Source: an uncultured Oscillospiraceae bacterium
GTDB taxonomy: Bacteria > Bacillota > Clostridia > Oscillospirales > Oscillospiraceae
Direction: 5' to 3'
Assembly (NCBI GenBank): GCA_947589545.1
Contig: CANQBA010000045.1
Span: 1-33,391, forward strand
DNA: 33,391 nucleotides
Both the position numbers and the translations under genes were made by a program. Positions 12,958 through 33,246 of this stretch are shown here, piece by piece. Numbering within the stretch: the first letter of the stretch is position 1; each line of letters begins with the position of its first letter. The notes under the pieces were generated by a model that saw only the letters and a program-made list of their open reading frames with translations, had not been told where the DNA came from and did not search any database.

Positions 12958-13018
12958 GTGGGTCAAGTTGTGAGTCAGCCCACCTTCCGGGCGGAAAGCG
13001 GGCTGGACGATTCGGATA
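12958..13018 (+). other. Attachment-like site X/Y (arm repeats plus core)
   Basis: GTGGGTCA (12958-12965) and GTGAGTCA (12970-12977) are direct repeats with 12-bp period. After 28 bp, which hold an imperfect CCCACCTTCC/GGAAAGCGGG hairpin, comes GACGATTCGGATA (13006-13018). The same layout stands at 30301-30361 and 33186-33246. I read the repeats as integrase arm sites and the 13-mer as the crossover core. Confidence 0.6.
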
Positions 13019-13143
13019 AGCTCGTGAAAAGAGCGTAGAGCGCGCCAATTCAAGGGACTACATAGTAACTCTGAACGGAGGAAAAGTCAAGCTGTCAAGA
13101 TTTTGGATGCAATAAGCAATAAACTTTTTCCTCTGCCATACGC
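13019..13143 (+). repeat. Left-end repeat of element Y, first part
   Basis: It aligns with 30362-30487 in element Z: shared words include CATAGTAACTCTGAA, GAAAAGTCAAGC, ATAAGCAA and CTCTGCCATAC. In Z the repeat runs straight on into the R2 hairpin, but here it breaks off after CTCTGCCATAC and resumes at about 13930, the TA module lying between. Confidence 0.7.
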
Positions 13144-13175
13144 CTGTCGTGATAAAGGAAAATCAATCTTCGTCA

Positions 13176-13520
13176 TCAATTTTCCTGATTGGCCGCTTCC
13201 AACTCCCGGCGCAGGCGCGGGATGTCCTCAGAAACAGTATCCCAAACGATCCGCAGTTCTACACCGGAATATCCGTGGACGATTCGGTTCCGCATCCCGT
13301 AAATTTGCCGCCACGGAATTGCCGGGAGAGCCTCCTTTGCGGCATCACTCAGGGAGTTTTTCGCCAGCTCCCCGATTTGCATCAGATTAAACACCGTGGC
13401 TTCCACACGCATGGAATTTGCCTCAAAGTCGGAGAGGGAGGCGCAGTCCTTGCAATACCTCAGCACTGCCTCCGCATGTTCCTGAAGCTTGCGCAGTACC
13501 CTGCGGTCTTTATCGTCCAT
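13176..13520 (-). CDS. hepT: HepT-like HEPN toxin (DUF86)
   Basis: A 114-residue HEPN-domain protein of the HepT/DUF86 type, with the R-x4-H-x-Y active motif as RNRIVHGY near residues 78-85. HepT toxins cleave RNA and are neutralised by MntA, which AMPylates the tyrosine of this motif. The ATG at 13520 lies inside the end of the antitoxin gene (11-base overlap), so the pair is coupled. The order antitoxin-toxin, the size and the motif all fit an intact module. The longer upstream frame would need an unlikely start within mntA. Confidence 0.88.
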   Translation of the reverse strand: MDDKDRRVLRKLQEHAEAVLRYCKDCASLSDFEANSMRVEATVFNLMQIGELAKNSLSDAAKEALPAIPWRQIYGMRNRIVHGYSGVELRIVWDTVSEDIPRLRRELEAANQEN

Positions 13521-13809
13521 AGATCGGCACCCCGCTTTCACGAATCTCGCGCTCGATTCTGGAGCCACTGTCGATTTGCCTGACATCCAACAAATCTACG
13601 GGAGTCTCCAGAGATGAGGCCACGTCCTCTAAAAGCCCAAAAAACGCCAGACCGCGCAGACCGCTGTCCACAAGGATGTCCACATCACTGCGCGGCGTCG
13701 CGATCCCTTTCGCGTATGAGCCAAAGAGCACGGCCTGTCTGACGCCGTTCCGTTCGAAAATAGGCGTCAGCAGCTCCTTCAGTTCAGGAACAGTGTATAC
13801 CTTGCTCAT
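13510..13809 (-). CDS. mntA: MntA-like nucleotidyltransferase antitoxin
   Basis: A 99-residue minimal nucleotidyltransferase: GSYAKGIATPRSDVDILV (about residues 31-48) contains the GS(Y)-x-(K/R)G and the S-D-x-D metal-binding pair of MNT antitoxins. It transfers AMP to HepT and blocks its RNase activity. The ATG has a GGAGTGTTC-type site, and a strong promoter lies at 13866-13894. The two genes stand in sequence that splits an otherwise continuous element-end repeat, so this is a cassette that arrived after the repeat. Confidence 0.88.
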   Translation of the reverse strand: MSKVYTVPELKELLTPIFERNGVRQAVLFGSYAKGIATPRSDVDILVDSGLRGLAFFGLLEDVASSLETPVDLLDVRQIDSGSRIEREIRESGVPIYGR

Positions 13810-13865
13810 GCGAACACTCCTCTCTTCGCAATGATGTCAACGGTTGGCTGCTTGCCTACGATAAT

Positions 13866-13894
13866 AGTATAGCATAAAAGCGTATAAAAAGCAA
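13866..13894 (-). promoter_or_regulatory. Promoter of mntA-hepT
   Basis: On the minus strand TTGCTT (13889-13894), 17 bp, TATACT (13866-13871), about 60 bases upstream of the mntA ATG. Confidence 0.7.
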
Positions 13895-13929
13895 CTCGCG
13901 ATTGTGACAGTGATGCTATCCAACAAATA

Positions 13930-14045
13930 TTTCTCTGCCGTACACCATCAACTACGGCCCCTCAAATTCTGCGGGGGACCCCCTGCAATTTTTGGGAGGG
14001 GAATAGTATTAATAATACGAAGAGCAACAAGTATAAAGCCCTCTC
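13930..14045 (+). repeat. Left-end repeat of Y, second part with hairpin R2
   Basis: It starts with TTTCTCTGCCGTACACCATC, which restates the last bases before the TA module and continues as in Z (30476 onward). The core is a hairpin in which CCCCTC...GCGGGGG pairs with CCCCCTGC...GGGAGGGG around a two-base turn. AT-rich sequence with CAACAAGTATAAAGCCC follows. Other copies are at 30511-30603 (full) and 28187-28252 (half). Confidence 0.7.
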
Positions 14046-14808
14046 AGATATGGATTTGAAAGTTTCCGTACTGAAATAAACCGCCGCCCTGCCTCAGCTT
14101 TCCCTCCCGCGACAGCTCCCGGAACGCCTTTTCGATCCTGTCCACCATGTCAACTGGGACAGAAAGCTCGTGGTGGCCGGGGAGGATGCGGCTGATTTCC
14201 AGATCCCGCACCTTCCTGACGGACTGCCAGAACAGCTGCGGATCCGTAGTCGGATAAAAGGCGTCTAGACAGCCCTGATAGATCAGGTCGCCGGAAAACA
14301 AATATTTGCGCTCAGGCTCATAAAAGCAGCAATGTCCAGGGGAGTGTCCGGGCGTGTGAATCACCGTAAGTGTCCTGTCGCCCAAGGACAGACAGTCACC
14401 GTCATGCAGAAGCTCTTGAGGTGCCCCTTGGAAGATTCGGTAATCATCAAGGACAAAATCCTCCGGGAAATCGCACAGGCGGCAGGTCAAGTTGTGCTTG
14501 ACAACCTCCAACGGGATGGGGAACTGCTCCGCCAGCCAATCCTTCTCGGCCTCGTGCACGGCGATCCTGTCAAAATATCTGTGCCCGCCGATGTGGTCCC
14601 AATGGACGTGGGTCGTGACTACGGTCACCGGGAGGTTCGTGAGGCTGTCAACAACCTCCCTGATATTACCGACGCCCAACCCCGTATCGATCAACACCGC
14701 CCTCTCGGTTCCACAGACCAGGTAGCAGTGCGTCTCCTCCCAGTGCTTATACTCGCTAATCGCAAATGTATCGCTGTCGATTGTTTCGACTGTAAACCAA
14801 GTGCCCAT
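14044..14808 (-). CDS. MBL-fold metallo-hydrolase
   Basis: A 254-residue metallo-beta-lactamase-fold enzyme. THVHWDHIGGH near residues 66-76 is the HxHxDH di-zinc motif. TPGHSPGHCCFY near 151-162, FSGDLIYQG near 171-179 and the ILPGHH motif near 208-213 supply the other metal ligands. Such proteins hydrolyse thioesters, lactones or phosphoesters; the substrate here cannot be told. No signal peptide is present, so it acts in the cytoplasm. Its stop falls at the end of the R2 repeat and its start lies 116 bases from repeat R4, so it occupies a cargo slot between the element left end and R4. The same slot in Z holds a YdeI-like gene. Confidence 0.85.
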   Translation of the reverse strand: MGTWFTVETIDSDTFAISEYKHWEETHCYLVCGTERAVLIDTGLGVGNIREVVDSLTNLPVTVVTTHVHWDHIGGHRYFDRIAVHEAEKDWLAEQFPIPLEVVKHNLTCRLCDFPEDFVLDDYRIFQGAPQELLHDGDCLSLGDRTLTVIHTPGHSPGHCCFYEPERKYLFSGDLIYQGCLDAFYPTTDPQLFWQSVRKVRDLEISRILPGHHELSVPVDMVDRIEKAFRELSREGKLRQGGGLFQYGNFQIHI

Positions 14809-14923
14809 AAGGAACCGCCCTCACTCAAGCTGCAAGTTGCAGAATCATTGGCCTCCAAGGAAAGTATACCATGTGCGCTTAAAAAAGTCCACGGTAATTC
14901 GATCCCACTCAGCATCGTGGCCT

Positions 14924-15025
14924 CGCTGTTGCCCCGTGTGCGGCTTCAGGGCAGAGGGGAGGACGTATACACCTCCACGAAGCCAAAGCGCCGTGTTGCG
15001 GATTTGTGGGGCAGGTGGGAAAGCC
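14924..15025 (+). repeat. Repeat R4, Y copy
   Basis: About 100 bp related to 31618-31719 in Z, with shared words such as GTGTGCGGCTTCA, GGCAGAGG and TTTGTGGGG. In Z it is followed directly by R3. Here the IS110 element and other sequence intervene before R3 at 16770. Short frames across it look accidental. Confidence 0.6.
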
Positions 15026-15121
15026 AAGGCGGGTTTTGTCAGACAGCCATATAACCGCAGTCACGGCAGTTTTCTCCGGTTTTGACCCTGTTCGAAAATT
15101 GGACAGACCGGCTATAAATTG

Positions 15122-16306
15122 TCAAGTGGAAAGTAGGCCGGGGACGTAAGTTTTGTTATCACGAATAACAGCGTAGATGACCGACACCATCTTCCGGCAG
15201 GCGTGGCCGAGGGAGGCCATGTAGGGCTTGCCCTCTGACCGCTTCTTCTGGAAGTACTCCCTGAACATGGGGTCGTGGATAACAGCCGCGCTGGCGGCAA
15301 GCCATATGGCGTGGCGTAGATATGGCGAGCCCCGTTTGCTCATCCTGTTGCGAACGCCGTTGTACTCCCCTGACTGGCGCATGGTCGGGTCAATGCCGGC
15401 GTAGGCCGCCAGCTTTGCGGAGGAGGGGAAACGGCTGATGTCACCGATCTCGCTGACGATGACCGCTCCCAACGTCGGACCGATCCCAGTGATCGTCATG
15501 ATGGGCGTATCCAGAGTATCCATGATCTCCGCGATTTTCTCGTCCATTGTGCTGATCTGCTGCTTGAGAAAAACAATGTGCTGGGCATAGAGCTTGATCA
15601 TCGCGCTGAAAACGTCGCTCACCATGTCGAATCCGAAGGAGCTACGCGCGAGCTCCTGAATCTCCCGCGCCTTCGCCATCCCGAACCTCTTGCGGCTCGG
15701 CTTCTGGATAAGCTCACAGAGCTCGTCCGTATCCATGGTGGACAGTTCCTTCGGCGTAGGGCAAGTCTGTAGAATGGCCATGGAGGTGTCACCGAAGAGA
15801 TCCGTGAAGAGCTTCTCGTACTCAGGGAAGACCTGATCCAGCAGGGCTATGACTTTGCGCTTGACGTCCGCCTGCATAGAGACGATGGCGTGGCGGCCGC
15901 GGCAGAGCTCTCGGAGCTCGTAAATGACCTCCCGGTGGAGCGTGGACTCGGAGAAGTGTCCAAAGCGTATGGCCTCCGCGATGAGAACAGCGTCACGAGG
16001 GTCGGTCTTGGCCTGCCGGATGTAGAAGCTGCGGATGGAATTCGTCTGTACTGGGTTGATGACCTGGATCTGGTATCCCTCATGCTGCAGACGCGCGAAA
16101 AGGGGCAGCCAGTAGTGACCTGTCGACTCCATCGCGAATCGCGTCTCGCCGAGAGGCAGCTTCGCCTTTCGGAGCACGCCAAGGAGGTGGTTGTAGCCGG
16201 AGCAGTTGTTGGTGAAGGAGAAGGGCTTAATGACGGTTTCTCCTTCCCCGTCGATGACGGCGGCCTCATGCTTCCTCTTGGCGATGTCGATACCCACGAT
16301 GTACAT
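15122..16306 (-). CDS. IS110-family transposase
   Basis: A 394-residue transposase. The N-terminal DEDD RuvC-like domain opens with YIVGIDIAKRKHEA (first Asp near residue 7) and includes MESTGHYW near 59-66 and KTDPRDAVLIA near 100-110. The C-terminal Tnp domain has TGIGPTLGAVIVSEIGD near 274-290 and YAGIDPTMRQSGEY near 305-318, with its catalytic Ser in the following segment. These enzymes recombine circular intermediates with targets under guidance of an RNA made from the upstream non-coding end. The GGAGGAAT site confirms the start. The gene is full length and without frameshifts. Confidence 0.93.
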   Translation of the reverse strand: MYIVGIDIAKRKHEAAVIDGEGETVIKPFSFTNNCSGYNHLLGVLRKAKLPLGETRFAMESTGHYWLPLFARLQHEGYQIQVINPVQTNSIRSFYIRQAKTDPRDAVLIAEAIRFGHFSESTLHREVIYELRELCRGRHAIVSMQADVKRKVIALLDQVFPEYEKLFTDLFGDTSMAILQTCPTPKELSTMDTDELCELIQKPSRKRFGMAKAREIQELARSSFGFDMVSDVFSAMIKLYAQHIVFLKQQISTMDEKIAEIMDTLDTPIMTITGIGPTLGAVIVSEIGDISRFPSSAKLAAYAGIDPTMRQSGEYNGVRNRMSKRGSPYLRHAIWLAASAAVIHDPMFREYFQKKRSEGKPYMASLGHACRKMVSVIYAVIRDNKTYVPGLLST

Positions 16307-16505
16307 GATAAAATTCCTCCAATGAAAGATTTGCGGACATCCTCATGCTGCTGAAGGTCACAACCTGTTGAGAGATCAGAAGAAAGCGACGAATCGCTCC
16401 TACATCCGGCTCATAAGCGACATCCCGCAGGGCAGAGGTTCCAGTCTGTGCGCAGTAGACACGACTACAAAGATAGGAGCAGGAAATTCTCTGTCCGCAT
16501 GAGGT
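16307..16505 (-). ncRNA. Candidate bridge RNA region of the IS110 element
   Basis: The roughly 200 bp upstream of the transposase start carry no gene and begin at an extended -10 box. In IS110 elements this segment encodes a structured bridge RNA with loops that pair with target and donor. I see complementary words able to fold (for example CTCTGCCCTGCGGGATG on the minus strand) but have not derived the loops. Confidence 0.5.
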
Positions 16506-16511
16506 ATTATA
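16506..16511 (-). promoter_or_regulatory. -10 half of a split IS110 promoter
   Basis: Minus strand TGGTATAAT is an extended -10. The -35 at the correct distance in the integrated form is poor (TCAACG at 16529-16534), while a perfect TTGACA waits at the other end of the element. Confidence 0.5.
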
Positions 16512-16588
16512 CCATCGCCCGCATAGGGCGTTGATACCGAATTTCAAAATGGTTTGGGGGGAAATCCCCCTGTTTGAAAATATAATAA

Positions 16589-16654
16589 GATAAAGAGCCG
16601 CCATCGTGCGCGACGGCAGCTCGGCCACAAAGCCCCGCAGGGCGGGGCTTTTCT
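16589..16654 (+). terminator. Tandem hairpins R5, Y copy
   Basis: GATAAAGAGCCG opens a stem that closes with GGCAGCTC, followed by GCCCCGC/GCGGGGC and TTTT. The second hairpin is identical to the one at 9368-9388, the first differs in sequence but still mostly pairs. No gene ends immediately before it here, so it is a relic of module shuffling. Confidence 0.65.
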
Positions 16655-16769
16655 GAGTTACACAACACAGTCGGTTTTGAGGCAGCGGTGCGGTTTAGGC
16701 GGTCGGTTAGAACGGATTTGCCAGCGATTCCAAGGAAAAATCCGCAGTCATGAGCGCAGAGGGAAAAGC

Positions 16770-16916
16770 TCTCCCGTTTGGGAGAGGCAAGCATCGCATT
16801 TGTCTGTACACCGGGCGAGCCCGGCGCCCCGCCAAACGCATTTGCGGGCAGAAGCCCGGACCCACTGAGCGAAAAGTTATCCGTTTGTACACAATTTCTC
16901 TCTGGCTATTTGGCGA
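16770..16916 (+). repeat. Structured repeat R3, Y copy
   Basis: About 147 bp, closely matching 31747-31893 in Z. It contains the hairpins TCTCCC-GTTT-GGGAGA and CCGGGC-GA-GCCCGG, a GCCCGGACCCACTGAGC block, and ends in GGCTATTTGGCGA, which is also the -35 part of the Z integrase promoter. Here it precedes the DUF6809 relic. Confidence 0.75.
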
Positions 16917-16928
16917 GGGGGAGTAAAA

Positions 16929-17160
16929 ATGGAGAATTAAATTAGCGAACTCTATTACGGCAACATCTGCCCAGTCGAACAGACGGAAGGAGCCACATCG
17001 GAGAAAAAGGAAAGAGGATACACGAAAACGAGGAAAAATTGCGTGCAACCCTCGATGAGCAGGAAAACGCCATTCTTGACGCCATAAAGAATGACTGCCT
17101 CACCGTATCCAGTTCAATAGACGAGAGACGTTTTCGCGGGGCCTTCCGCTTGGAGTATAT
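16929..17160 (+). pseudogene. Decayed DUF6809 gene
   Basis: ATG at 16929 is followed by a stop at the fourth codon, then ISELYYGNICPVEQ in frame as in the gene at 58. About 7 bases are deleted near 17013, shifting the rest into another frame, where LRATLDEQENAILDAIKND and ERRFRGAF match the intact protein. The tail is replaced by unrelated sequence. It has the same place, before the cargo operon, as the intact copy in X. Confidence 0.85.
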
Positions 17161-17168
17161 GTTTTGCG

Positions 17169-17191
17169 CCGGGTCATACCCGGTTGTTTTT
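17169..17191 (+). terminator. Small terminator after the DUF6809 relic
   Basis: CCGGGT-CAT-ACCCGG followed by TTGTTTTT. Confidence 0.7.
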
Positions 17192-17252
17192 GCCGTTCAT
17201 AGACGATATTCCATTCCCGCTTTTAAAGTGGGGAGTTCTTTTTTGCGAATAT

Positions 17253-17275
17253 CTGTGGTATACTATATCCCACAG
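17253..17275 (+). promoter_or_regulatory. tetR promoter with overlapping palindrome
   Basis: CTGTGGTATA and TATCCCACAG form an inverted repeat with 9 of 10 bases paired around CTA. The extended -10 TGGTATACT lies inside it, 45-60 bases before the TetR ATG. This is the expected layout for autorepression. Confidence 0.65.
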
Positions 17276-17319
17276 TCGTAAGACAGCTGCGGCGGAAGAC
17301 ATCCTGAAGGAGATCAAAA

Positions 17320-17877
17320 ATGGCTAACTTTACAAAGAAAGCGATCCAGGAATCCTTTCTGAAATTGCTGACGGAACGGCCCCTGTCCCAAATCACGATC
17401 AAGGATATTGTGGCGGATTGCGGCATCAATCGAAACACCTTTTACTACTATTTTGAAGATATGCCAAAACTCATTGAAAGTATTGTGGAGGATGATGCCG
17501 CAAAAATCATTCAGTCCTATCCCACGATAGAAAAATTCGAGGACTGTCTGGACGCGGCAATTACGCTGGCGCTGGCAAAAAAGCGCGCGGTACTGCATAT
17601 TTATCACTCGGCAAACCGGGAAATCTATGAGATGTACTTATGGAAAGTCTGTGATCATACGATCAATGCCTATGTTACCTCCGCCCTGCGCGGAAAAAAG
17701 GTTCGGGAAAGCGACCTTTTCATCGTAAAAGAGTATCTGTCCGGCCTTGCCTTCGGCATCTTTTCCAGATGGCTGAAAAACGATATGAACGATGATATTC
17801 GGGGTATGCTCTCACGCCTGATGGAGATCAAGAAAGGAATGATCGAAGAGATGATTCTGTGCTGTGTCAATGAGTAA
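17320..17877 (+). CDS. TetR/AcrR-family transcriptional regulator
   Basis: A 185-residue repressor-type protein. The N-terminal helix-turn-helix is clear: LSQITIKDIVADCGINRNTFYYYF (about residues 21-44), the most conserved part of TetR proteins. The helical ligand domain follows with a TetR_C-type tail. It precedes an HdeD-like gene, an MMPL transporter and a secreted coiled-coil protein, and probably represses the group in response to an unknown compound. A palindrome overlaps its own promoter. It ends in a terminator, so the transporter genes are likely transcribed separately. Confidence 0.9.
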   Translation: MANFTKKAIQESFLKLLTERPLSQITIKDIVADCGINRNTFYYYFEDMPKLIESIVEDDAAKIIQSYPTIEKFEDCLDAAITLALAKKRAVLHIYHSANREIYEMYLWKVCDHTINAYVTSALRGKKVRESDLFIVKEYLSGLAFGIFSRWLKNDMNDDIRGMLSRLMEIKKGMIEEMILCCVNE

Positions 17878-17922
17878 ATTCAGACAAATGCCACCGTTTG
17901 CCTGAAAATCGGTCATTTTTAT

Positions 17923-17956
17923 GTCCCGTGTCTGATTATCGGACACGGGACTTTTT
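17923..17956 (+). terminator. Terminator after tetR
   Basis: A perfect 10-bp stem GTCCCGTGTC/GACACGGGAC, 9-base loop and five T residues. Confidence 0.88.
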
Positions 17957-18023
17957 GCGTCTGTATGCAAATCAAATAAGCCGGATTACAATAGAGACAA
18001 ACGAGCAAAGGAGGTTTGCTTCT

Positions 18024-18632
18024 ATGAAGATGCGATCTGTAGCACCAATGAAAATCGCGAAAACCGGATACATCGTCATGTCCGTCCTGTTTTGCGCCGC
18101 AGGCATTCTTTTTATGGCCGAGCCCGGAATCTCAACGGAAATCATCGGCGTTTGTATCGGCGTCGCAATGATCCTTTTCGGCATTGTCAAGCTGATCGGC
18201 TATTTTTCAAAGGATCTATTCCGATTGGCATTCCAGTTCGATCTGGAATTCGGGATATTGATGATCATACTCGGCGTGATCGTCCTTTTTAACCCGAAAA
18301 ACCTGATGGTATTTATCTGCATTGCTCTTGGGATCTCCATCCTGCTTGACGGTCTTTTTAAAATACGAATTGCCATGGATTCAAAACAGTTTGGCATCAA
18401 AAGCTGGTGGCTGATTTTGGCTCTGGCGATTATCGCCGGGGGGACCGGGGTTTTCCTGATTTTTGATTCGGTCATCGGATCACGGGCTCTATCGGTTTTA
18501 TTGGGACTCACGCTTCTTTTGGAGGGCATTTTGAACCTGTATACGGCGATCAGTACCGTTTTGATCGTCAAAAATCAAGCGCCGGATAGCTTTGAAGTAG
18601 AGGCATTTGAGATTGACGGAAAGGAAAGGTGA
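18024..18632 (+). CDS. HdeD-like DUF308 membrane protein
   Basis: A 202-residue integral membrane protein with six hydrophobic segments in three pairs (starting near residues 12, 35, 72, 97, 133 and 160). This is the pattern of HdeD/DUF308 proteins, whose role in acid or envelope stress is poorly defined. The ATG at 18024 follows AAAGGAGG and is preferred over a frame opening at 17898. Its stop lies six bases before the MMPL start. A TACAAT box at 17987 may be its -10, without a clear -35. Confidence 0.8.
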   Translation: MKMRSVAPMKIAKTGYIVMSVLFCAAGILFMAEPGISTEIIGVCIGVAMILFGIVKLIGYFSKDLFRLAFQFDLEFGILMIILGVIVLFNPKNLMVFICIALGISILLDGLFKIRIAMDSKQFGIKSWWLILALAIIAGGTGVFLIFDSVIGSRALSVLLGLTLLLEGILNLYTAISTVLIVKNQAPDSFEVEAFEIDGKER

Positions 18633-18637
18633 AAGAC

Positions 18638-23707: not shown

Positions 23708-23711
23708 AGCT

Positions 23712-25791: not shown

Positions 25792-25834
25792 GTGACATCT
25801 TAATACGGAGGAAAAAGAAAAAGTGACATCTTGG
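25792..25834 (+). promoter_or_regulatory. Direct repeats GTGACATCTT before the RHH-like gene
   Basis: Identical ten-base repeats at 25792-25801 and 25825-25834, period 33. They stand 60 bases before the ribbon-helix-helix-like gene, as TGACCGATTT repeats do in X. Confidence 0.5.
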
Positions 25835-25892
25835 CGCCGAAACGCTTACGGACACGGGCATTTTTCGGTGTCAAACAGGAAAGGAGGACAAT

Positions 25893-26309
25893 ATGAGCAA
25901 GGAAGGACAAGAACGGATCACATTTCGGACAAGTACGAAAACAAGGTCTGCCATTGAGCAGTTGATGGGAGATGAAGGCAGCCGGAGCATGAACGAGTTC
26001 ATCGAACACGCGGTCAAACACTACATCGACCACATCCTGATGACAAGAGCGACCACACTCCCAAAAGCCATCAGCAGCGCCATCGACGGCAGGCTGGGCA
26101 TGTTGGAAGACAGGTTGTCGGCTCTGCAGTTCAACAACTCGGTTGAGCTGGACATGCTGGTACAGATCATCGCACACGCATACAAATTTAACGACACCGC
26201 TCTGCGCAAGCTGCGCTCGGACAGCGTGAGGAAAGTGAAGCAGACGAGCGGCCGCGTGTCGCTGGCGAACGCGGTGAGGGAGAGTGACGAAGCTGAATGG
26301 CAGGGCTGA
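25893..26309 (+). CDS. Ribbon-helix-helix-like relaxosome accessory
   Basis: A 138-residue protein: strand ERITFRTS, helix KTRSAIEQLMG and helix SMNEFIEHAVKHYI (about residues 7-45) suggest a ribbon-helix-helix. A helical region containing NNSVELDMLVQIIAHAY (about 81-97) follows, which corresponds to KWAVELNMACHTIAAHYG of the X protein. It overlaps the relaxase start by 13 bases. MobC-type proteins bind the transfer origin with the relaxase. AAAGGAGG precedes the ATG. Confidence 0.7.
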   Translation: MSKEGQERITFRTSTKTRSAIEQLMGDEGSRSMNEFIEHAVKHYIDHILMTRATTLPKAISSAIDGRLGMLEDRLSALQFNNSVELDMLVQIIAHAYKFNDTALRKLRSDSVRKVKQTSGRVSLANAVRESDEAEWQG

Positions 26310-28183
26310 TCCTCAAGTCGCCGTACATCAAGGCGGGCGGGGCCGGGAAGTACATGAGGTACATCGCCACCCGCGAGAACGTAGAGCGGCTGCCGGACAG
26401 CAGACCACCGACGCAGAAACAGGCGGAGCTCGTGCAAAAGCTGACCCGCGACTTCCCAACCTCGATGAAGTCCGACACCTACTCCCGGTACACCAAGTCC
26501 CCCACGCGCGCAAGCGCCTCCGCCTACATCTCGTCAACCCTCGAAGCGAATTGGGACGCGGCGCAGAGCACGGAGGTCTACATGAAGTACATCGCCACCC
26601 GCCCGCGCGTCGAGAAGCTGGGCACCCACGGTCTGTTCGGCGACACAGACAACGTGGACCTCGACACAGCTATCACAGAGCTGGAGTCCGTCACCGGAAA
26701 TGTGTGGACCCACATCATCTCCCTAACCCGCGGCGACGCGGAGCGGCTGGGCTACGACAACGCCTCAACCTGGCGCAATCTCCTCCGCGCCCACCGCAAC
26801 AACATCGCCGAGGCTATGCGGATAGAGCCAAACGACTTCCACTGGTACGCTGCCTTCCACAACGAGGGCGACCACCCCCACGTCCATATGATGGCGTGGT
26901 CAGAGAGTGGCGGTGGCTACCTGAGCAAGGATGGGATAAGAAAAATCAAGTCCGGGTTGGTCAACGACATCTTCAAGCAGGAGCTTCTGCACACCTATGA
27001 ACAGAAATCCGAAATGCGGGATGAGCTGGTCAACGAGGTGCGTCAATCGCTGCAAGAGCTGGTCGGTCAAATCCGCGACGGCCTGTGCGCCTGCCCGCAG
27101 ATAGCACCGATGCTGATGGAGCTGTCCACAGAGCTGGGCACAGTCAAGGGGAAGAAATCCTACGGCTACCTCAAGAAAAATCTCAAGGACAAGGTAGACA
27201 AAATCGTTGATGAGCTGGAGACAGTTCCCGCAGTGCATGAGTGCTACATGAAGTGGCTCGACCTGCAGGCGGAAGTGGACAGATACTACAAGGACGAACG
27301 GCGAAAACGCCTGCGCCTCTCCGAGCAAAAAGAATTCCGCTCCGTGAAGAACGCGGTCATCCAGGAGGCAGAACGCCTACGGATGGGCGAGGTGACAGTC
27401 GAGGAAGTGCCGCCAGGCCCTGTGGACGAGTGCGACTGGCAGGAACAAAGCTACATCAGCACATACTTCCTGGACGAAACCACGCCCCTCGACGAGCGCG
27501 ACGAGGCGGTGGAACAAGAGCGGAAGTACGCAGAAGATGGTGAGCCATCGTCGCAGTATGTGCTGGGCGTGCTCTACCGTGACGGTGGTCTCCTCATGCC
27601 GGACGTGGTGAAGGCCAGAGATTGGTTCACCCGGTCGGCACAGCAGGGTTACGTCCCGGCGCAGTACGCTCTCGACAAGCTGCTCCTCTCCGATGACCCG
27701 GAGGTACATGACCAAGACAACGGCATCCGCTGGCTCCAAACAGCCGCGAGGAACGGCAGTCCCTACGCGGCCTATGAGTTGGGAAAAGCCTATCTGAAAG
27801 CCGGTGACCGTCAGCAGGCTGAGACATACTTCACCCAGGCCGCCGAAGGCGAGAACGCCAACGCCATGTACATGCTGGGCAAGCTCCTCTACGACAGCGA
27901 CCCCAAACAGGCCAACTACTGGCTGCGCGAATCCGCTTCCTACGGTAACCTATACGCACAACGAGCAATCAGCGCCCACACCTCCCCGACCATCGCCGCC
28001 TGCGTCACCCGTCTGCTCTACCACCTGGGCCGTGTCATCCGCGACAACACGGAGCAAAATTCTCACGGCCCCGGTTTCGGCATTGACCGCAAGCGCCGCC
28101 GCGAGCTCATGGACAAACGCCTCGCCATGGGCCACAAGCCGGACGACCATGCGGATATACAGATGCAGGGGTTCAGCATGTGA
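26297..28183 (+). CDS. MobP3/MobL-type relaxase with C-terminal Sel1 repeats
   Basis: A 628-residue relaxase. The N-terminal part has YMRYIATRENVE and YMKYIATRPRVEKLG (about 19-30 and 95-109), VWTHIISL near 136, and the metal-binding HNEGDHPHVHMMAWS near 188-202, as in MobP3/MobL proteins of Clostridia. It should nick the element at oriT and pilot one strand through a helper's secretion system. A helical linker follows, then about four Sel1-like repeats (roughly 400-555, for example SSQYVLGVLYRDG and NAMYMLGKLLYD), and a basic end. The Sel1 part may contact the coupling protein. No frameshift is visible. Confidence 0.85.
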   Translation: MAGLILKSPYIKAGGAGKYMRYIATRENVERLPDSRPPTQKQAELVQKLTRDFPTSMKSDTYSRYTKSPTRASASAYISSTLEANWDAAQSTEVYMKYIATRPRVEKLGTHGLFGDTDNVDLDTAITELESVTGNVWTHIISLTRGDAERLGYDNASTWRNLLRAHRNNIAEAMRIEPNDFHWYAAFHNEGDHPHVHMMAWSESGGGYLSKDGIRKIKSGLVNDIFKQELLHTYEQKSEMRDELVNEVRQSLQELVGQIRDGLCACPQIAPMLMELSTELGTVKGKKSYGYLKKNLKDKVDKIVDELETVPAVHECYMKWLDLQAEVDRYYKDERRKRLRLSEQKEFRSVKNAVIQEAERLRMGEVTVEEVPPGPVDECDWQEQSYISTYFLDETTPLDERDEAVEQERKYAEDGEPSSQYVLGVLYRDGGLLMPDVVKARDWFTRSAQQGYVPAQYALDKLLLSDDPEVHDQDNGIRWLQTAARNGSPYAAYELGKAYLKAGDRQQAETYFTQAAEGENANAMYMLGKLLYDSDPKQANYWLRESASYGNLYAQRAISAHTSPTIAACVTRLLYHLGRVIRDNTEQNSHGPGFGIDRKRRRELMDKRLAMGHKPDDHADIQMQGFSM

Positions 28184-28186
28184 CCC

Positions 28187-28252
28187 CCACCCCCTTCAAA
28201 ATCTGCGGGGGAAATATACAACAATACGAATAGCAACAAATATAAAGCCCTT
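28187..28252 (+). repeat. Half copy of repeat R2 before the excisionase
   Basis: CCCCTTCAAAATCTGCGGGGG followed by ACGAATAGCAACAAATATAA and AAAGCCCTT matches R2 at 13955-14044 and 30511-30603 but lacks the second hairpin arm. It forms the upstream region of the excisionase gene. Confidence 0.65.
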
Positions 28253-28269
28253 CGGAAAGAGGTGAAATC

Positions 28270-28479
28270 ATGGAAAAGCAATTCAAGACCTACGACGATT
28301 TACCCCTGATGCTGTCCGTCCAAGACGTGTCGGCGGTACTTGGAATATCCAGAGCCGGAGCCTACGAGCTGGTCAAAAGCGAGGGCTTCCCGGCGATGAA
28401 CATCGGAAGCAGGATCATCGTGCCGAAAGAGGAATTTATCCTCTGGATCAGGCAAAAAGTTTCTGAGAAAAAACAGTAG
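28270..28479 (+). CDS. xis: Excisionase-like helix-turn-helix protein
   Basis: A 69-residue winged helix protein: LMLSVQDVSAVLGISRAGAYELV (about residues 13-35), GFPAMNIGSRIIVPKEEFILWI. It is close to the X homolog at 8576. It lies 58 bases before the integrase, the classical place of an excisionase that controls direction of recombination. GAAAGAGGTGA is the ribosome site. Confidence 0.82.
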   Translation: MEKQFKTYDDLPLMLSVQDVSAVLGISRAGAYELVKSEGFPAMNIGSRIIVPKEEFILWIRQKVSEKKQ

Positions 28480-28505
28480 CTATTTCCCGGAAAGTGTGGT
28501 ATGTG
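28477..28505 (+). promoter_or_regulatory. Conserved integrase promoter, copy Y
   Basis: TAGCTA at the end of xis, 17 bp, extended -10 TGGTATGTG. Same spacing as in X and Z. Confidence 0.55.
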
Positions 28506-28537
28506 TTGTGGTTACCAAATCAAAGGGGGTACCGTAG

Positions 28538-29686
28538 ATGGCAAAGCGCAGAGCCAATGGCGAGGGAAATATACGCAAAAGACCTGACGGTCGTTGGGAA
28601 GGGAGATACATCGCTGGACATGACGAGAACGGGAACGCTATCCGAAAGAACGTCCTTGGTCGGACCCAGGCGGAGGTCAAGGAGAAGCTGAAGAAAGCCA
28701 TCGGGGAGTGTGCGGAGGTAGACATCGAGAGGGCTGAGGAATACACGGTGGCTGCATGGGTCAGGACATGGTATGAAACCTACTCGAAGCCGCACGTTAG
28801 GGAGAGTACGCAGAGGTTCTACGAGGACTATATCGAACATCATGTGGTGCCGAGGATTGGGGCCATCAAGCTCACCAAATTGACTGGCAGAGACATACAG
28901 AAGATGTACAACGACGTTAAGGCGAAGGGGCGGATCAGGAAGAAGGCGGACGGGGACACCAGCATGAGCGCCAGTTACGTCCGGGGCCTCCACATGATGC
29001 TCCACAACTGCCTGGACCGTGCAGTGAAGGAGAGGTTGATTCTGCGGAATCCCACTGAGGATTGCATCGTACCGAAGTTGGAGAAGAAGGAAATGCACAT
29101 CCTGCACCCGGAGGACATCAGCGCCTACCTCAAAGAAGCAGACCGGCGGGGCGTGCTGGCGATGTTCTTCCTCGAATTGACCACCGGCCTCCGAAAAGGT
29201 GAGCTGGTTGCCCTGTTGTGGAGCGACCTCGATGAAAAGGCCATGACCCTGAACGTCTGCAAACAAGCCGCCGGAGTCAAAGGCGGAGGGGTGAAGGTCA
29301 CAAGACCAAAAACGGACACCTCCATCCGCAGAATCTCGTTGTCCCAGGAGACCATCGACGTCTTGAAACGGGAGCATGACAAGCACCCAGAAATCGAATA
29401 TATGTTCCCTTCCCCGGTCACTCTCGGCATGTATTACCCGGATTCCGTCACGGCCATTCACAACAAAATCCTCAAATCTGCCGGTCTCCCGCACATCCGT
29501 CTGCACGACCTCCGCCATACCTTCGCAACTCTGGCACTGCAAAACGGTGTAGATGTCAAAACCGTCTCCAGCATCCTCGGCCATTTCGATGCCGGCTTCA
29601 CCCTCCGCACCTACACCCACGTCACTACAAAAATGCAGGAGGAAGCAGCAGCCACCATGGGTAAGCTAATCGGGGCGAATGTGTGA
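28538..29686 (+). CDS. int: Tyrosine-family site-specific integrase of element Y
   Basis: A 382-residue recombinase: AP2-like arm-binding domain (ANGEGNIRKRPDGRWEGRY, about 5-23), core-binding domain (about 65-165), catalytic domain with TTGLRKGE near 215, HDLRH near 326, LGH near 349 and RTYTHV near 362. It differs from the Z integrase at about 18 residues by my count, yet the DNA has many silent changes, so both have been under selection. AAAGGGGG precedes the ATG. Arm-type repeats and the core lie 615-675 bp downstream. Confidence 0.93.
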   Translation: MAKRRANGEGNIRKRPDGRWEGRYIAGHDENGNAIRKNVLGRTQAEVKEKLKKAIGECAEVDIERAEEYTVAAWVRTWYETYSKPHVRESTQRFYEDYIEHHVVPRIGAIKLTKLTGRDIQKMYNDVKAKGRIRKKADGDTSMSASYVRGLHMMLHNCLDRAVKERLILRNPTEDCIVPKLEKKEMHILHPEDISAYLKEADRRGVLAMFFLELTTGLRKGELVALLWSDLDEKAMTLNVCKQAAGVKGGGVKVTRPKTDTSIRRISLSQETIDVLKREHDKHPEIEYMFPSPVTLGMYYPDSVTAIHNKILKSAGLPHIRLHDLRHTFATLALQNGVDVKTVSSILGHFDAGFTLRTYTHVTTKMQEEAAATMGKLIGANV

Positions 29687-29706
29687 GTAAAATCCAGACA
29701 AAAAGA

Positions 29707-29740
29707 GAGCCTGGAGGCACTTGCTCCGGGCTCCCCTTTT
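29707..29740. terminator. Terminator between integrase Y and sodC
   Basis: GAGCCTGGAG pairs with CTCCGGGCTC, then CCCTTTT; the left flank AAAAAGAG makes it usable from both sides. The two genes converge on it. Confidence 0.75.
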
Positions 29741-29754
29741 GCGTGTACCGCGCT

Positions 29755-30192
29755 TTAAACGCGGCGAATGACGCCGCAGGCGATTTTCTCTCCCGCGTTC
29801 CCGGATGGCTGCGTTTTGAAATCGTCCAGGCCTCCGTGTATGACAACGGTTTTGCCGATGACCTCATTCACCCGGAACCGGCCCGTCAGCACCTGACAGT
29901 ACGCCCTCCCGCGATTGCTGAGCAGCGGCGGGAGATCGCCCACGTGACGCGGATGCTCCACGGCTGTGGGGTTATAATGGGAACCTGTGTCCGGGAATCC
30001 GGCACCTCGGCAATCGCCGCCCGCGTGGATGTGGAACGCGAAAAAACCGGTATCCGTATCGGGCAAGCCCACAATATCCGCGACCACCAGCGTCCCTCCG
30101 CATCGTGGATAGAACCGGACTGTTCCCCTAAGCCCCGAATACGCCTCCCCGCCTTCGATTTGGGCAATGGCCGAAGGCTTTTTATTCTCCAA
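29755..30192 (-). CDS. sodC: Cu/Zn superoxide dismutase family protein
   Basis: A 145-residue SodC-like enzyme. FHIHAGGDC supplies two copper His and the first disulfide Cys, SHYNP the bridging His, HPRHVGDLP two zinc His and the zinc Asp, VIHGG the last copper His, and TQPSGNAGEKIACGVI the conserved end with the second Cys. All metal ligands are present. It converts superoxide to oxygen and peroxide. No signal peptide is seen, as in many Firmicutes members. The start is TTG 30190-30192, with AAGAGGTGA about six bases upstream; GTG at 30201 is the alternative. It lies between the integrase and the element right end and is probably cargo. Confidence 0.85.
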   Translation of the reverse strand: MENKKPSAIAQIEGGEAYSGLRGTVRFYPRCGGTLVVADIVGLPDTDTGFFAFHIHAGGDCRGAGFPDTGSHYNPTAVEHPRHVGDLPPLLSNRGRAYCQVLTGRFRVNEVIGKTVVIHGGLDDFKTQPSGNAGEKIACGVIRRV

Positions 30193-30240
30193 ATAAATCA
30201 CCTCTTAACCATGCTACGCAGATCCGGGTTTAGTGGTGAA

Positions 30241-30271
30241 AAGGTCGTGGGACGAGGAATCCCACGGCCTT
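30241..30271 (+). terminator. Hairpin upstream of the Y right end
   Basis: AAGGTCGTGGGA pairs with TCCCACGGCCTT over 12 bp. The matching hairpin in Z is at 33121-33151. In Z it directly follows the integrase; here sodC lies between. Confidence 0.75.
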
Positions 30272-30300
30272 ATGTTATCCCGTTCTTTCCGCTTCGTCCA

Positions 30301-30361
30301 GTGGGTCAACTTGTGGGTCAGCCCACTTTCCGTCCGGAAAGTGGGCTGGACGATTCGGATA
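30301..30361 (+). other. Attachment-like site Y/Z (arm repeats plus core)
   Basis: GTGGGTCA at 30301-30308 and 30313-30320, 28 bp containing the perfect hairpin CCCACTTTCC-GTCC-GGAAAGTGGG, and the core GACGATTCGGATA at 30349-30361. Confidence 0.65.
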
Positions 30362-30605
30362 ATTCACCGAAGGAGGTGCGAGAAAGGCAATTCGATGGTT
30401 GCATAGTAACTCTGAATGGCAGAAAAGTCAAGCCTTCAATATTTGGACGGCTATAAGCAAAAAGAGCCTTTTCCCTCTGCCATACACCATCAACCGAAGC
30501 TGAACCCAAACCACGGCCCCTCAAATTTTGCAGGGGACCCCCTGCAATTTTCGGGAGGGGAATAGTATTAACAAGACGAAGGACAACAAGATAAAGCCCT
30601 CTGCC
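30362..30605 (+). repeat. Left-end repeat of element Z with hairpin R2
   Basis: The uninterrupted form of the left end. The hairpin at 30515-30556 pairs TTGCAGGGG with CCCCTGCAA across one base and continues with outer pairs CCCCTC/GAGGGG. It shows what the Y end looked like before the TA module entered. Confidence 0.7.
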
Positions 30606-30740
30606 CTGACCTTGCCGCCAGAAAAAGCGATGGCAAAACGATAGCAAAACAGCCAGGGCATTTTCTATATGAAATGGGCGGAGCTTAAAGGAAAGCGCAA
30701 TGAACCGCCTTAACGGACAGTGGATTTCTTTACATTTTCG

Positions 30741-30749
30741 TGATATAAT
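30741..30749 (+). promoter_or_regulatory. Extended -10 promoter of the YdeI-like gene
   Basis: TGATATAAT is TGn plus a perfect TATAAT, 60 bases before the ATG at 30809. The rest of 30606-30808 holds nothing else I can support. Confidence 0.6.
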
Positions 30750-30808
30750 GCAAAATATCGAATGGACGGCTGTTCGGCAAATCGGGATTTAGTGAGGCCA
30801 AGTAAGGA

Positions 30809-31381
30809 ATGGAGTATAAAAATATTTTACAAGTCGATTGCCGCAAATCATTTCGTGAATGGCTCAGCGTTTATTCAGAACAAGAGACAGAATGCTGGGT
30901 TAATGTAAAACGTGGAAAGCCTGTTGATGACACCCACTTTTGGTATATTGATGCTGTGGAAGAAGCGCTTTGCTATGGCTGGATAGACAGCACCCACCGA
31001 ATCATTGACGGAAAGAGGTTGCAGCGCTTTACACCCCGTAAAAAGGGGAGCAAGTGGACAGAACTCAACAAGGAGCGCGTTCGCAGACTGGATGCTTTAG
31101 GTCTGATGACTGATGCGGGAAGAGCAGTCCTCCCTGCTATGGGGATTCGCAGTTTTCAAATTGACCCTGATATTGAGGCGGCACTGAAGGCTGCACGGGC
31201 ATGGTCAAAGTTCAAATCATTTCCTCCCTTATACCAAAGGGTTCGAGCGGGAAATATCGCCTTCTATAAGAAACGAAACCCAGAGATGTACGACCAAATG
31301 TTGGCGCACTTAATCGAGGAAACCAGACAAGGTAAAATGTTTGGCGAATGGAATGACTATGGCAGACTGTTAGATTATTAA
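30809..31381 (+). CDS. YdeI/OmpD-associated family protein
   Basis: A 190-residue cytoplasmic protein of the YdeI/OmpD-associated family. FREWLSVYSEQETECWV, then YIDAVEEALCYGWIDS (about residues 50-65), RFTPRKKGSKWTELNKERV (about 77-95) and LALL-like helices rich in Lys at the end give the family pattern. Its biochemical role is not settled; relatives are linked to peptide and stress resistance in some bacteria. It occupies the slot held in Y by the MBL hydrolase. The ribosome site is weak (AAGGA touches the ATG). Confidence 0.8.
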   Translation: MEYKNILQVDCRKSFREWLSVYSEQETECWVNVKRGKPVDDTHFWYIDAVEEALCYGWIDSTHRIIDGKRLQRFTPRKKGSKWTELNKERVRRLDALGLMTDAGRAVLPAMGIRSFQIDPDIEAALKAARAWSKFKSFPPLYQRVRAGNIAFYKKRNPEMYDQMLAHLIEETRQGKMFGEWNDYGRLLDY

Positions 31382-31424
31382 ATTCCCGTTTGTCGAACTG
31401 AACACAACTGAATACCGCAAGATT

Positions 31425-31472
31425 GACCGTTGACGCACCGGCTTCCCGGTGAAAAAGCCAGCGGTCTTTTTT
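31425..31472 (+). terminator. Terminator after the YdeI-like gene
   Basis: GACCGTTG pairs with CAGCGGTC and, inside, ACCGG with CCGGT; six T residues follow. Confidence 0.8.
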
Positions 31473-31498
31473 ATCCCAAAAGAAGGGTGTCACACAAT

Positions 31499-31694
31499 GG
31501 CAAAGGCAATCAACCAGCTCCAAGTGGAGATCGTAAAACCTCAGATGTTCAGGTGCCACATTAATCGGCATTCTAAAGTCACAATAGACCAATTGCCCTG
31601 TCGGAAGAGCAGTGACGCGATTGCTGCCCCTGTGTGCGGCTTCACGGCAGAGGGACAGGATTGTACACCCCTGAGCACCAAAGGCACCGTGTAG
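31499..31694 (+). other. Possible truncated ORF running into repeat R4
   Basis: ATG 31499 has AAGGGTG at good distance and opens MAKAINQLQVEIVKPQ, but the frame continues into R4 with no sign of a protein family. It may be the start of a gene lost by rearrangement, or chance. Confidence 0.2.
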
Positions 31695-31719
31695 CGGGTT
31701 TGTGGGGAGGTGTGAAAGG
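31618..31719 (+). repeat. Repeat R4, Z copy
   Basis: Matches 14924-15025. Here R4 and R3 are 27 bp apart, the arrangement that the IS110 insertion and rearrangement broke up in Y. Confidence 0.6.
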
Positions 31720-31746
31720 TAGAGCGTGAGGTGCAGAGAGGAAGAC

Positions 31747-31893
31747 TCTCCCGTTTGGGAGAGGCAAGCATCGCATTTGTCTGTACACCGGGCGAGCCCG
31801 GTGCCCGCCAAATGCTTTTCTGGGCAGTAGCCCGGACCCACTGAGCAAAAAAGTTGTCCGTTTGTACACAATTTTCCCCTGGCTATTTGGCGA
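31747..31893 (+). repeat. Structured repeat R3, Z copy
   Basis: Close to 16770-16916, with both hairpins conserved. Its last 13 bases form the -35 side of the integrase promoter. Confidence 0.75.
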
Positions 31894-31908
31894 ACGTGGT
31901 GGTATGTT
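31880..31908 (+). promoter_or_regulatory. Conserved integrase promoter, copy Z
   Basis: TGGCTA, 17 bp, TATGTT preceded by TGG. The -35 part belongs to R3, the -10 part to the integrase module. Confidence 0.6.
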
Positions 31909-31944
31909 GTGTGTTTGCCGAAGGGCAGAAAGGAGGCGCACAGC

Positions 31945-33093
31945 ATGAGTAAACGCAGAGCCAACGGTGAGGGGAATATTCGCAAGAGGCCGGATGGGCG
32001 CTGGGAAGGGCGGTATGTGGCTGGGCACGACGAGAATGGGAAAGCTATCCGAAAGAACGTGCTCGGCAGGACACAAGCGGAGGTCAAGGAGAAGCTGAAG
32101 AAAGCCATCGGGGGGTGTGCGGAGGTTGACGTTGAACGAGCAGAGGAATATACCGTCGGCACTTGGGTCAGAACGTGGTACGAGACGTACTCAAAGCCGC
32201 ACGTCAGGGAGAGTACACAGAGGTTCTATGAGGATTACATCGAGCACCATGTGGTGCCCCGTATCGGCGGCATCAAACTCACCAAGCTGACTGGCAGAGA
32301 CATACAGAAGATGTACAATGATGTGAAGGCAAAAGGGCGGATTCGGAAGAAAGCGGACGGGGACACCAGCATGAGCGCCAGCTACGTCCGGGGCCTCCAC
32401 ATGATGCTCCACAACTGTTTGGACCGAGCGGTGAAGGAGAGGCTGATCCTACGGAATCCAACCGAGGACTGCATCGTGCCGAAGCTGGAGAAGAAGGAAA
32501 TGCAAATCCTGCACCCAGAGGACATCAGCGCCTACCTCAAGGAGGCAGATAAACGGGGCGTTCTGGCGATGTTCTTCCTGGAGCTGACCACGGGGCTACG
32601 CAAAGGGGAGCTCGTTGCCCTCCTTTGGGCTGACCTTGACGAGAAAACTATGACCTTGAATGTCTGCAAGCAGGCCGCCGGAGTCAAAGGCGGAGGAGTG
32701 AAGGTGACGAGGCCGAAAACGGAGACCTCCATCCGCAAAATCTCTCTGTCGCAGGAGACTATCGACGTCCTGAAACGGGAGCACGAGAAGCATCCAGAAC
32801 TCGAAATCATGTTCCCTTCCCCGGTAACGCTGGGTATGTATTACCCCGACTCGGTTACTGCCATCCACAACAAAATCCTCAAATCCGCCGGACTCCCACA
32901 CATACGTCTGCACGACTTGAGACATACCTTCGCAACCTTGGCACTGCAAAACGGCGTGGACGTCAAAACCGTCTCCTCCATCCTGGGCCACTACGACGCC
33001 GGGTTCACCCTCCGCACCTACACCCACGTTACCACAAAGATGCAGGAGGAAGCCGCAGCGACGATGGGCAAGTTGATCGGGGCGAATGTATGA
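31945..33093 (+). CDS. int: Tyrosine-family site-specific integrase of element Z
   Basis: A 382-residue recombinase with the same domains and catalytic residues as the Y integrase (TTGLRKGE, HDLRH, LGHYD, RTYTHV). ATG 31945 with AAGGAGG nine bases upstream gives the same length as in Y, so the longer upstream frame is not used. It lies 140 bp from its core site and 225 bp from the tRNA-Tyr 3' end. It is the most likely enzyme for the site next to the tRNA. Confidence 0.93.
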   Translation: MSKRRANGEGNIRKRPDGRWEGRYVAGHDENGKAIRKNVLGRTQAEVKEKLKKAIGGCAEVDVERAEEYTVGTWVRTWYETYSKPHVRESTQRFYEDYIEHHVVPRIGGIKLTKLTGRDIQKMYNDVKAKGRIRKKADGDTSMSASYVRGLHMMLHNCLDRAVKERLILRNPTEDCIVPKLEKKEMQILHPEDISAYLKEADKRGVLAMFFLELTTGLRKGELVALLWADLDEKTMTLNVCKQAAGVKGGGVKVTRPKTETSIRKISLSQETIDVLKREHEKHPELEIMFPSPVTLGMYYPDSVTAIHNKILKSAGLPHIRLHDLRHTFATLALQNGVDVKTVSSILGHYDAGFTLRTYTHVTTKMQEEAAATMGKLIGANV

Positions 33094-33108
33094 GCAAAAA
33101 CTACACAG

Positions 33109-33122
33109 CCATAACTAAAAAA
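33109..33122 (+). repeat. Boundary motif, copy 4
   Basis: CCATAACTAAAAAA, 15 bases after the integrase stop, preceded by CAAAAACTACACAG, as after integrase 2 of X. Confidence 0.5.
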
Positions 33123-33151
33123 GGCCGTGGGACGCATGATCCCACGGCCTT
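33121..33151 (+). terminator. Terminator after integrase Z
   Basis: A perfect 12-bp stem AAGGCCGTGGGA/TCCCACGGCCTT with a 7-base loop; only TGTG follows. Confidence 0.75.
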
Positions 33152-33185
33152 GTGCTGTCCCGTCCTTTCCGCTCCGAAATCCCGT

Positions 33186-33246
33186 TGGGGTCAGAAGTGG
33201 GTCAGAGGCAGGAAACAGCGAAAATACGACATAGACGATTCGGATA
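33186..33246 (+). other. Attachment-like site Z/chromosome
   Basis: TGGGGTCA (33186-33193) and GTGGGTCA (33197-33204), 29 bp of sequence unrelated to the other two sites, then GACGATTCGGATA (33234-33246). The spacing is kept although the filler differs and has no hairpin. Confidence 0.6.

Follow-up and report, generated by a model that had tools for sequence, protein, structure and literature searches.

Tandem integrative elements of an Oscillospiraceae bacterium probably recombine in the tRNA-Thr anticodon loop and rebuild the tRNA operon that they interrupt

The 33,391-nucleotide contig CANQBA010000045.1 (assembly GCA_947589545.1, positions 1 to 33,391; herein referred to as the window) of an uncultured Oscillospiraceae bacterium contains three sites at which a pair of short repeats, called arms here, is followed by the same 13-mer. 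Sequence comparison leads us to consider it probable, at roughly 85%, that integrative elements, some of them mobilizable, stand in tandem in the window and recombine in the anticodon loop of tRNA-Thr, that one class of right end (the Tyr class, which carries a tRNA-Tyr gene) rebuilds the interrupted operon with its tail, and that the second of the three sites is a scar. In the mechanism that we propose, the integrase would recombine a core, GATTACRAA, in the tRNA-Thr anticodon loop, and insertion into this first gene of an operon (promoter, Thr, Tyr, terminator) would rebuild both tRNAs behind the host promoter and leave the old host tRNA-Tyr, promoterless, at the left junction. The operon tail would probably have been acquired through an imprecise excision that also took host DNA beyond the left junction, and a fusion at site 2 would have welded two elements into one unit.

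The comparison set comprised 34 genomes of the host genus, including the window's own genome (G000; 3.83 Mb in 148 contigs); G, C, and L denote genomes, contigs, and loci, and the window is G000:C45. Type A sites (sites 1 and 2) consist of arms with a period of 12, an inverted repeat and the 13-mer, and type B sites (site 3) of arms with a period of 11–12, a different filler, the 13-mer, a terminator, and tRNA-Tyr. A search with the arms alone returned 54 type B places in 17/34 genomes and 43 type A-like places in 14/34; of these, 42 distinct type B sites and 37 distinct type A-like ones were read in detail, and the 42 right ends were sorted from several readings of their loci taken together. 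Dividing the window into three units, W1 to W3, the features on which the argument turns are as follows.

12836..12843, + strand: core TTACAAAT, the real W1/W2 boundary, assigned by comparison with other genomes
12958..12977, + strand: site 1, left-end (type A) arm repeats of W2 (at 12958 and 12970), about 122 bp after the core
12976..13005, + strand: hairpin (conserved inverted repeat) that separates the arms from the 13-mer and includes the last 2 arm bases
13006..13018, + strand: site 1 13-mer after a 28-bp gap, where the conserved left end stops on its inner side
30301..30361, + strand: site 2, type A arms (30301 and 30313), hairpin and, after a 28-bp gap, 13-mer (30349)
33184..33204, + strand: site 3, right-end (type B) arm repeats, TGGGGTCA at 33186 and GTGGGTCA at 33197
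33234..33246, + strand: 13-mer of site 3, after a 29-bp gap
33280..33319, − strand: terminator-like stem-loop of the carried tRNA-Tyr, read directly (its counterpart in C16 is scored as a terminator)
33319..33391, − strand: tRNA-Tyr, 73 of 85 bases at 100% identity, cut by the contig end

At the sites read across the genus, element ends break in the tRNA-Thr anticodon loop, at GATTACRAA. A 173-bp Tyr-Thr query is matched in full at intact loci and only as far as base 142–144, within the anticodon loop, at element ends, and at least 17 Tyr-Thr or Thr matches in at least 11 genomes stop at these bases. The intact loci run on through Thr into flanks resembling those of occupied loci (e.g., G025 and G030), and G025 retains an intact Tyr-Thr pair in a genome in which neither the 13-mer nor the arms were found. 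It is because the query stops there, the flanks are shared, and G025 is intact without arms or 13-mer that we place the crossover in GATTACRAA. The window core TTACAAAT is elsewhere the tRNA-Thr anticodon loop; its assignment at 12836 rests on this comparison since the motif TTACRAA, taken singly, occurs in the window at chance frequency (8 seen vs. 6 expected). We also considered tRNA-Tyr itself as the target and rejected it, as the breaks lie in Thr and Tyr copies read whole save at contig ends. The tandem accretion beside tRNA-Tyr proposed in the initial annotation is supported, with tRNA-Thr as the target.

Left ends are uniform in this respect: in all 22 tRNA-linked cases, the cut 3′ part of a tRNA precedes the arms by 122–123 bp. 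Most of the cut tRNAs are Thr(TGT), with a complete tRNA-Tyr ahead where the flank sufficed, or Thr(CGT), an identity taken from the loop in cut copies and from an ARAGORN call of tRNA-Thr in whole ones. Among the 37 double-arm sites, 32 have the 13-mer (≤2 mismatches) 27–28 bp past the arms, and one left end (L026) combines type A arms with a type B-like filler. The other five (L108, L109, L118, L126, and L129) represent a sister design that lacks the 13-mer and has GTGGGTCA arms as an inverted repeat, two forward and two reverse, in several cases directly after an integrase-like reading frame.

Two genomes hold whole elements that split and restore the tRNA gene, to be set against the intact site of G025. 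The first, on G030:C48, lies entirely on one contig (3,775 bp core to core) with a repeat of Tyr and the Thr 3′ half that has 1 mismatch in 145; joining its flanks in silico yields one intact Tyr and one intact Thr, and the predicted circle carries a single tRNA-Tyr between two arm pairs. The second, on G019:C21, is ∼22 kb long, encodes an integrase with 67% identity, and has ends that share a 353-bp perfect repeat plus a 9-bp core, the repeat comprising a terminator, tRNA-Tyr, a ∼190-bp spacer and the Thr 3′ half. At its left end the arms are 123 and 135 bp inwards, a position like that in the window, whereas its right arms begin 375 and 363 bp before the core; the 13-mer is absent from the ends read and has no exact copy in the G019 genome. 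Among the eight reading frames scanned in this element are those of type I restriction-modification proteins, of one GmrSD-like protein and of a second member of the phage integrase family; no relaxase was found.

What such an insertion does to its host follows from the order of the target operon, which is transcribed from Thr to Tyr. A strong promoter match of 11/12 (TTGACA, 17, TATCAT) precedes tRNA-Thr at an occupied site of G000 and at the intact site of G025, as does one of 11/12 in G019, the sole match in that stretch; a terminator lies beyond tRNA-Tyr in G000 and G025, and no same-strand promoter match was found upstream of the one displaced Tyr copy scanned. An ordinary attachment tail would be insufficient here because it restores Thr while leaving Tyr severed from its promoter. 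The Tyr-class right end brings a terminator, a complete tRNA-Tyr and the Thr 3′ half, so that both tRNA genes are whole at the right junction, where tRNA-Thr is intact: the target is Thr and the carried tRNA is Tyr. Tyr-Thr adjacency is itself usual in the family, as a 143-bp query was matched in full in 77 of 108 genomes of other genera, with a second, partial match in G063, G116, G138, and G140.

The number of tRNA-Tyr matches varies across the genus: one in each of G025, G002, G003, G004, G009, G011, and G012; two in each of G022, G024, G030, and G033, and likewise in G006, G007, and G019 (the second match of G006 and G007 being just 76% identical); one full and one of 32 bases in G016; four, one of them partial, in G020; six in G000 (two of them partial, at contig ends, and possibly one gene); and none in 9/34 genomes. 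None of nine copies behind an intact tRNA-Thr is changed, compared with 6 of 13 displaced copies (P = 0.046), in a test that omits partial copies (G000:C45, the C16 start, G015, and G020:C17), G025 (intact, one change), G026, and the more diverged genomes. The copy on G020:C14, which runs off its contig end, was presumed displaced, and dropping it gives P = 0.045.

Right ends fall into distinct groups. The 13-mer is present in 20 of the 42 type B sites, at a gap of 29 (17 sites), 30 (2), or 21 bp (1), and 13 of these 20 reach the Thr core via tRNA-Tyr, 246–248 bp after the arm end; two more, the window and G020:C14, leave the contig in or just past tRNA-Tyr. Of the 22 sites without the 13-mer, 6 show no core and 16 do: 14 at Thr(CGT), 102–112 bp away, and at Thr(TGT) one Tyr-less and one Tyr-carrying (L047, core at 262 bp). 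The 13-mer therefore occurs in 15/16 Tyr-carrying right ends and 0/15 cored Tyr-less ones (Fisher P = 6e-8, for related elements that are not independent). The Tyr-class right ends share a conserved flank and terminator, unlike the terminator of the intact G025 site. At 31 of the 42 sites the integrase stop lies 91–94 bp ahead of the arms (93 bp at site 3, from the first base of the W3 stop codon). A rigid arm-to-core distance on the right was considered and rejected, since it ranges from 102 to 262 bp in the genus and is ∼355 bp in G019, being fixed only on the left (122–123 bp). Among the Thr(CGT) right ends, this distance is either 102 bp (L074, L092, and L102) or 111–112 bp (L013 and others), about one helical turn apart. 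Four right ends (G000:C5:59709, C23:31434, L024, and L025) show the 13-mer and terminator with the tRNA absent, and C23, L024, and L025 continue with the same GTGGAATAAGTGGTTAAAA.

The initial annotation had located the three window sites with gaps of 28, 28, and 29 bp and had remarked that the filler of site 3 is unrelated to those of sites 1 and 2 while the spacing holds; our measurements agree on all of these points, and the geometry is general across the genus. A simple duplication of one site was considered as the origin of all three and rejected, as fillers and flanks differ and spacing is constant. The repeat GTGGGTCA is not enriched singly in the window (29 matches with ≤1 mismatch vs. 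25 expected); its paired arrangement alone is special. We agree with the earlier suggestion that the pairs are probably tyrosine integrase arm sites, one pair lying on each side of the core in the predicted circular form. The 13-mer has 5 matches in the window at ≤2 mismatches (shuffle mean 0.81; 0/100 shuffles reach 5), 13 exact copies in the 3.83 Mb of G000 (reversed control, 0), and occurs in 18/34 genus genomes, although five places (L021, L022, L028, L032, and L038), the sole matches of G017, G018, G026, and G032, resemble chance matches in coding sequence. Beyond the genus, the arms-plus-13-mer pattern was found in 3/300 genomes sampled from the family, all of this genus (1/106 genera).

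That annotation took the 13-mer for the crossover core and each site for an att junction, a view to which its exact recurrence at all three window sites, its constant distance to the arms, and the sharp drop of left-end conservation past it would lend support. Over 31 type A sites (the five with inverted arms and those with short flanks dropped), the arms are conserved at 1.89 bits per column, the filler at 1.45, the 13-mer at 1.64, and the sequence beyond it at 0.58. However, the 22 tRNA-linked left ends start at the anticodon loop; the intact Tyr-Thr site of G025, where an empty site was expected to bear the 13-mer, has none; 16 right ends and G019 have arms and core without it; and in the tandems of G016, G020, G030, and G033, where neighbours meet in the order 13-mer, tRNA-Tyr, Thr 3′ half, core, arms, 13-mer, both 13-mers persist 390–391 bp apart with tRNA-Tyr between them. 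At none of the sites read is the 13-mer a junction between a type B left side and a type A right side, and in related genomes sequence is continuous across it at the kinds of site to which sites 1 and 3 belong. We therefore give this view almost no chance, and the circles predicted from it (30349 to 13006 and 33234 to 30349) are unlikely because the 13-mer is not the core. A role of 13-mer and hairpin as a regulatory or replication site beside the arms, unrelated to recombination, is a tentative but appreciable alternative. It would suit the lack of a 13-mer in G019 and in all 14 Thr(CGT) right ends, the fall in conservation directly past it, and the two-sided changes of the hairpin: over 24 distinct rows, 275/312 cells pair in standard fashion (shuffle mean 265, maximum 275) and 14 changes are two-sided (mean 5.3, maximum 14 over 2000 shuffles), figures that are supportive only, the rows being related. 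Its difficulty is that spacing to the arms is near-fixed at both ends and that the 13-mer is strongly tied to Tyr-carrying right ends. The conserved left end stops, on its inner side, at the 13-mer, which is probably a site for an accessory protein at that edge of the attachment region.

A different challenge concerns the additional tRNA-Tyr copies, which could be products of homologous recombination, or of unequal crossing over, inside the arrays and no part of any mobile circle. The ∼144-bp repeats of the arrays invite such exchange, fused sites such as site 2 show that arrays rearrange, and the G019 repeat is so perfect that recent homogenization is possible. Yet single elements (G030 and G019) carry a Tyr copy at their own ends, the right ends of the class share a flank and terminator that differ from the intact G025 terminator, and a circle closed anywhere within the repeat retains one Tyr, so we regard this origin as improbable. 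We return to operon-tail capture, which we hold to be slightly better than an even bet: elements targeting a promoter-proximal tRNA gene would gain the rest of the operon by imprecise excision, keeping every tRNA of the operon expressed; this would have occurred at least twice; each new array member would leave behind a decaying, promoterless tRNA-Tyr; and the 13-mer of right ends would be a by-product of one capture. Phage lambda picks up bio via imprecise excision. The G019 repeat starts beside the GTCAG of the second arm, and its host copy is preceded by GTCAGG, an arrangement that an imprecise excision would leave if it fused the right arm region with host sequence past the left junction.

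Several observations weigh against the tandem array as we describe it. The window itself keeps no tRNA at its W1/W2 or W2/W3 boundary, the former being a core without tRNA and the latter (site 2) lacking even a tRNA fragment. Five of the 20 right ends with the 13-mer (L002 = C5, L005 = C23, L024, L025, and L096) have no downstream tRNA, and L099, which lacks the 13-mer, reaches a Thr(TGT) core at 129 bp without carrying Tyr. The same-locus argument rests on the right flank because left host flanks gave no match between intact and occupied sites (ten flanks; two occupied ones matched each other only). The decay test is weak, 7 of the 13 displaced copies being unchanged, and the draft genomes are fragmented, with repeats at contig ends, the window ending within tRNA-Tyr. 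Finally, Pfam gave no match to the integrase arm domain at E 1e-3, and the domain is taken from a moderate-confidence model, with short strands followed by a helix at 44–58 (pLDDT block means 66–77 over residues 11–60).

The principal genes of the window are as follows.

11206..12648, + strand: tyrosine integrase of the second class (480 aa), W1 right end (Pfam PF00589 and PF14659)
26297..28183, + strand: MobL relaxase with Sel1/TPR repeats, in W2 (PF18555, E = 1.7e-54)
28270..28479, + strand: excisionase-like protein, in W2 (TIGR01764, E = 2.9e-5, below the curated cut-off)
28538..29686, + strand: W2 integrase, 382 aa (PF00589 and PF14659)
31945..33093, + strand: W3 integrase, 382 aa (profile match; by sequence, its solved relatives are integrases and Xer-type recombinases)

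The tyrosine integrases of the elements resemble the Tn916 subgroup; their core-binding and catalytic domains (PF14659 and PF00589) are common to other subgroups too, and their N-terminus, compared with solved structures, gave one unrelated hit only, at E 0.97. Relatives of the integrase are encoded at 61 loci, 54 of them from metagenome-assembled genomes labelled Lapin, most named Oscillospiraceae; the label suggests a rabbit source.

W1 spans 1 to ∼12836 and comprises type III restriction-modification-like genes and two overlapping integrases, the one at 11206..12648 overlapping the end of that at 10046–11248. It terminates in AAATGCGTATATGC; a right end of this type, AAATGCGTATATG, is joined to the core and then to varying left ends in 5/34 genomes, and follows a related open frame in 4/6 places read. 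The right ends of this second integrase class (window 12822–12839; L247–L251) lack a tRNA and adjoin the same core, followed by different left ends. W2 unites a relaxase, an integrase 95% identical to that of W3, and the excisionase-like protein. Within it, 14932–16916 is a copy of the region upstream of the W3 integrase, without the integrase and split by a transposase gene that we take to be IS110-like; this is an older rearranged element. A Cu/Zn superoxide dismutase-like (sodC-like) gene (29755–30201, − strand; matches below curated cut-offs) stands between the W2 integrase and site 2. The earlier observation that each site lies downstream of an integrase needs correcting in detail for site 2, where ∼600 bp with this gene separate integrase and site; the left end said to be shared after sites 1 and 2 is shared only in part.

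Site 2 has type A arms directly abutting the terminator side of a right end (TTTCCGCT), core and tRNA being absent, and TTACRAA was not found between 29686 and 30301. The site looks like a scar in which a right end was fused to left-end arms. Three more fused sites (C5:45486, C71:13878, and G022:C18) have other junctions just ahead of the arms, which suggests independent rearrangements, and those on C5 and C71 have no whole integrase immediately before them. W3 contains a presumably YdeI-like gene and the integrase, then site 3, the terminator, and tRNA-Tyr. ARAGORN found no tRNA in the window because tRNA-Tyr is cut off by the contig end. W2 and W3 together form the predicted mobile unit, which would start at 12836 and end in a Thr core past the contig end. 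The end of C45 and the start of C16 overlap by 61 bp inside tRNA-Tyr, with an intact tRNA-Thr following in C16, into which the array may continue.

The array belongs to a known kind, the tRNA-gene island with an anticodon site and tandem organization; what is new is the carried operon neighbour. In the Islander set, as far as the portion of the report available to us goes, 2,083 of 3,919 islands have anticodon-centred sites, and 125 tandems with at least two members and 4 with at least three are listed (PMC4383910). The two share a tyrosine integrase that splits a tRNA gene, restoration of that gene by the island, and a displaced fragment at the other end; here, in contrast, the target 3′ half is restored together with a complete next tRNA gene and terminator, of which that portion makes no mention (PMC4383910). 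In tRNA-dependent lysogeny, a whole tRNA gene is likewise brought to offset damage to an essential tRNA target, although in the excerpt at hand the target is not rebuilt and the phage tRNA is of the same isotype, with its own promoter in the phage tested (PMC10865867), whereas here Thr is rebuilt and the carried Tyr is an operon neighbour behind the host promoter. In the IntTn916 subgroup, an arm-binding domain made of three strands and a helix lies at the N-terminus, which the moderate-confidence model here may resemble, and, according to the section consulted, Tn916 and Tn1549 insert in AT-rich DNA without strict specificity, unlike the elements here (PMC8138268). ICEMh1-like elements integrate in the tRNA-Leu anticodon loop with one functional and one disrupted copy, as here; some insertions are bounded by complete copies on both sides and some are missing an end, and the accessible part of that paper mentions copies of the target tRNA only and no operon neighbour (PMC6861422). 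A search of titles and abstract openings in openly licensed literature found no element carrying the complete operon neighbour of its target tRNA, which does not prove absence.

Mobile elements favour tRNA genes, and the usual rule covers repair of the gene that is hit. A target at the head of an operon adds a second problem, the loss of everything downstream, to which the carried tail suggests a simple answer. The several tRNA-Tyr copies of some genomes may accordingly be mostly silent leftovers of insertion and not added translation capacity. For annotation, the anticodon loop, and not the conspicuous repeats, is where element boundaries belong.

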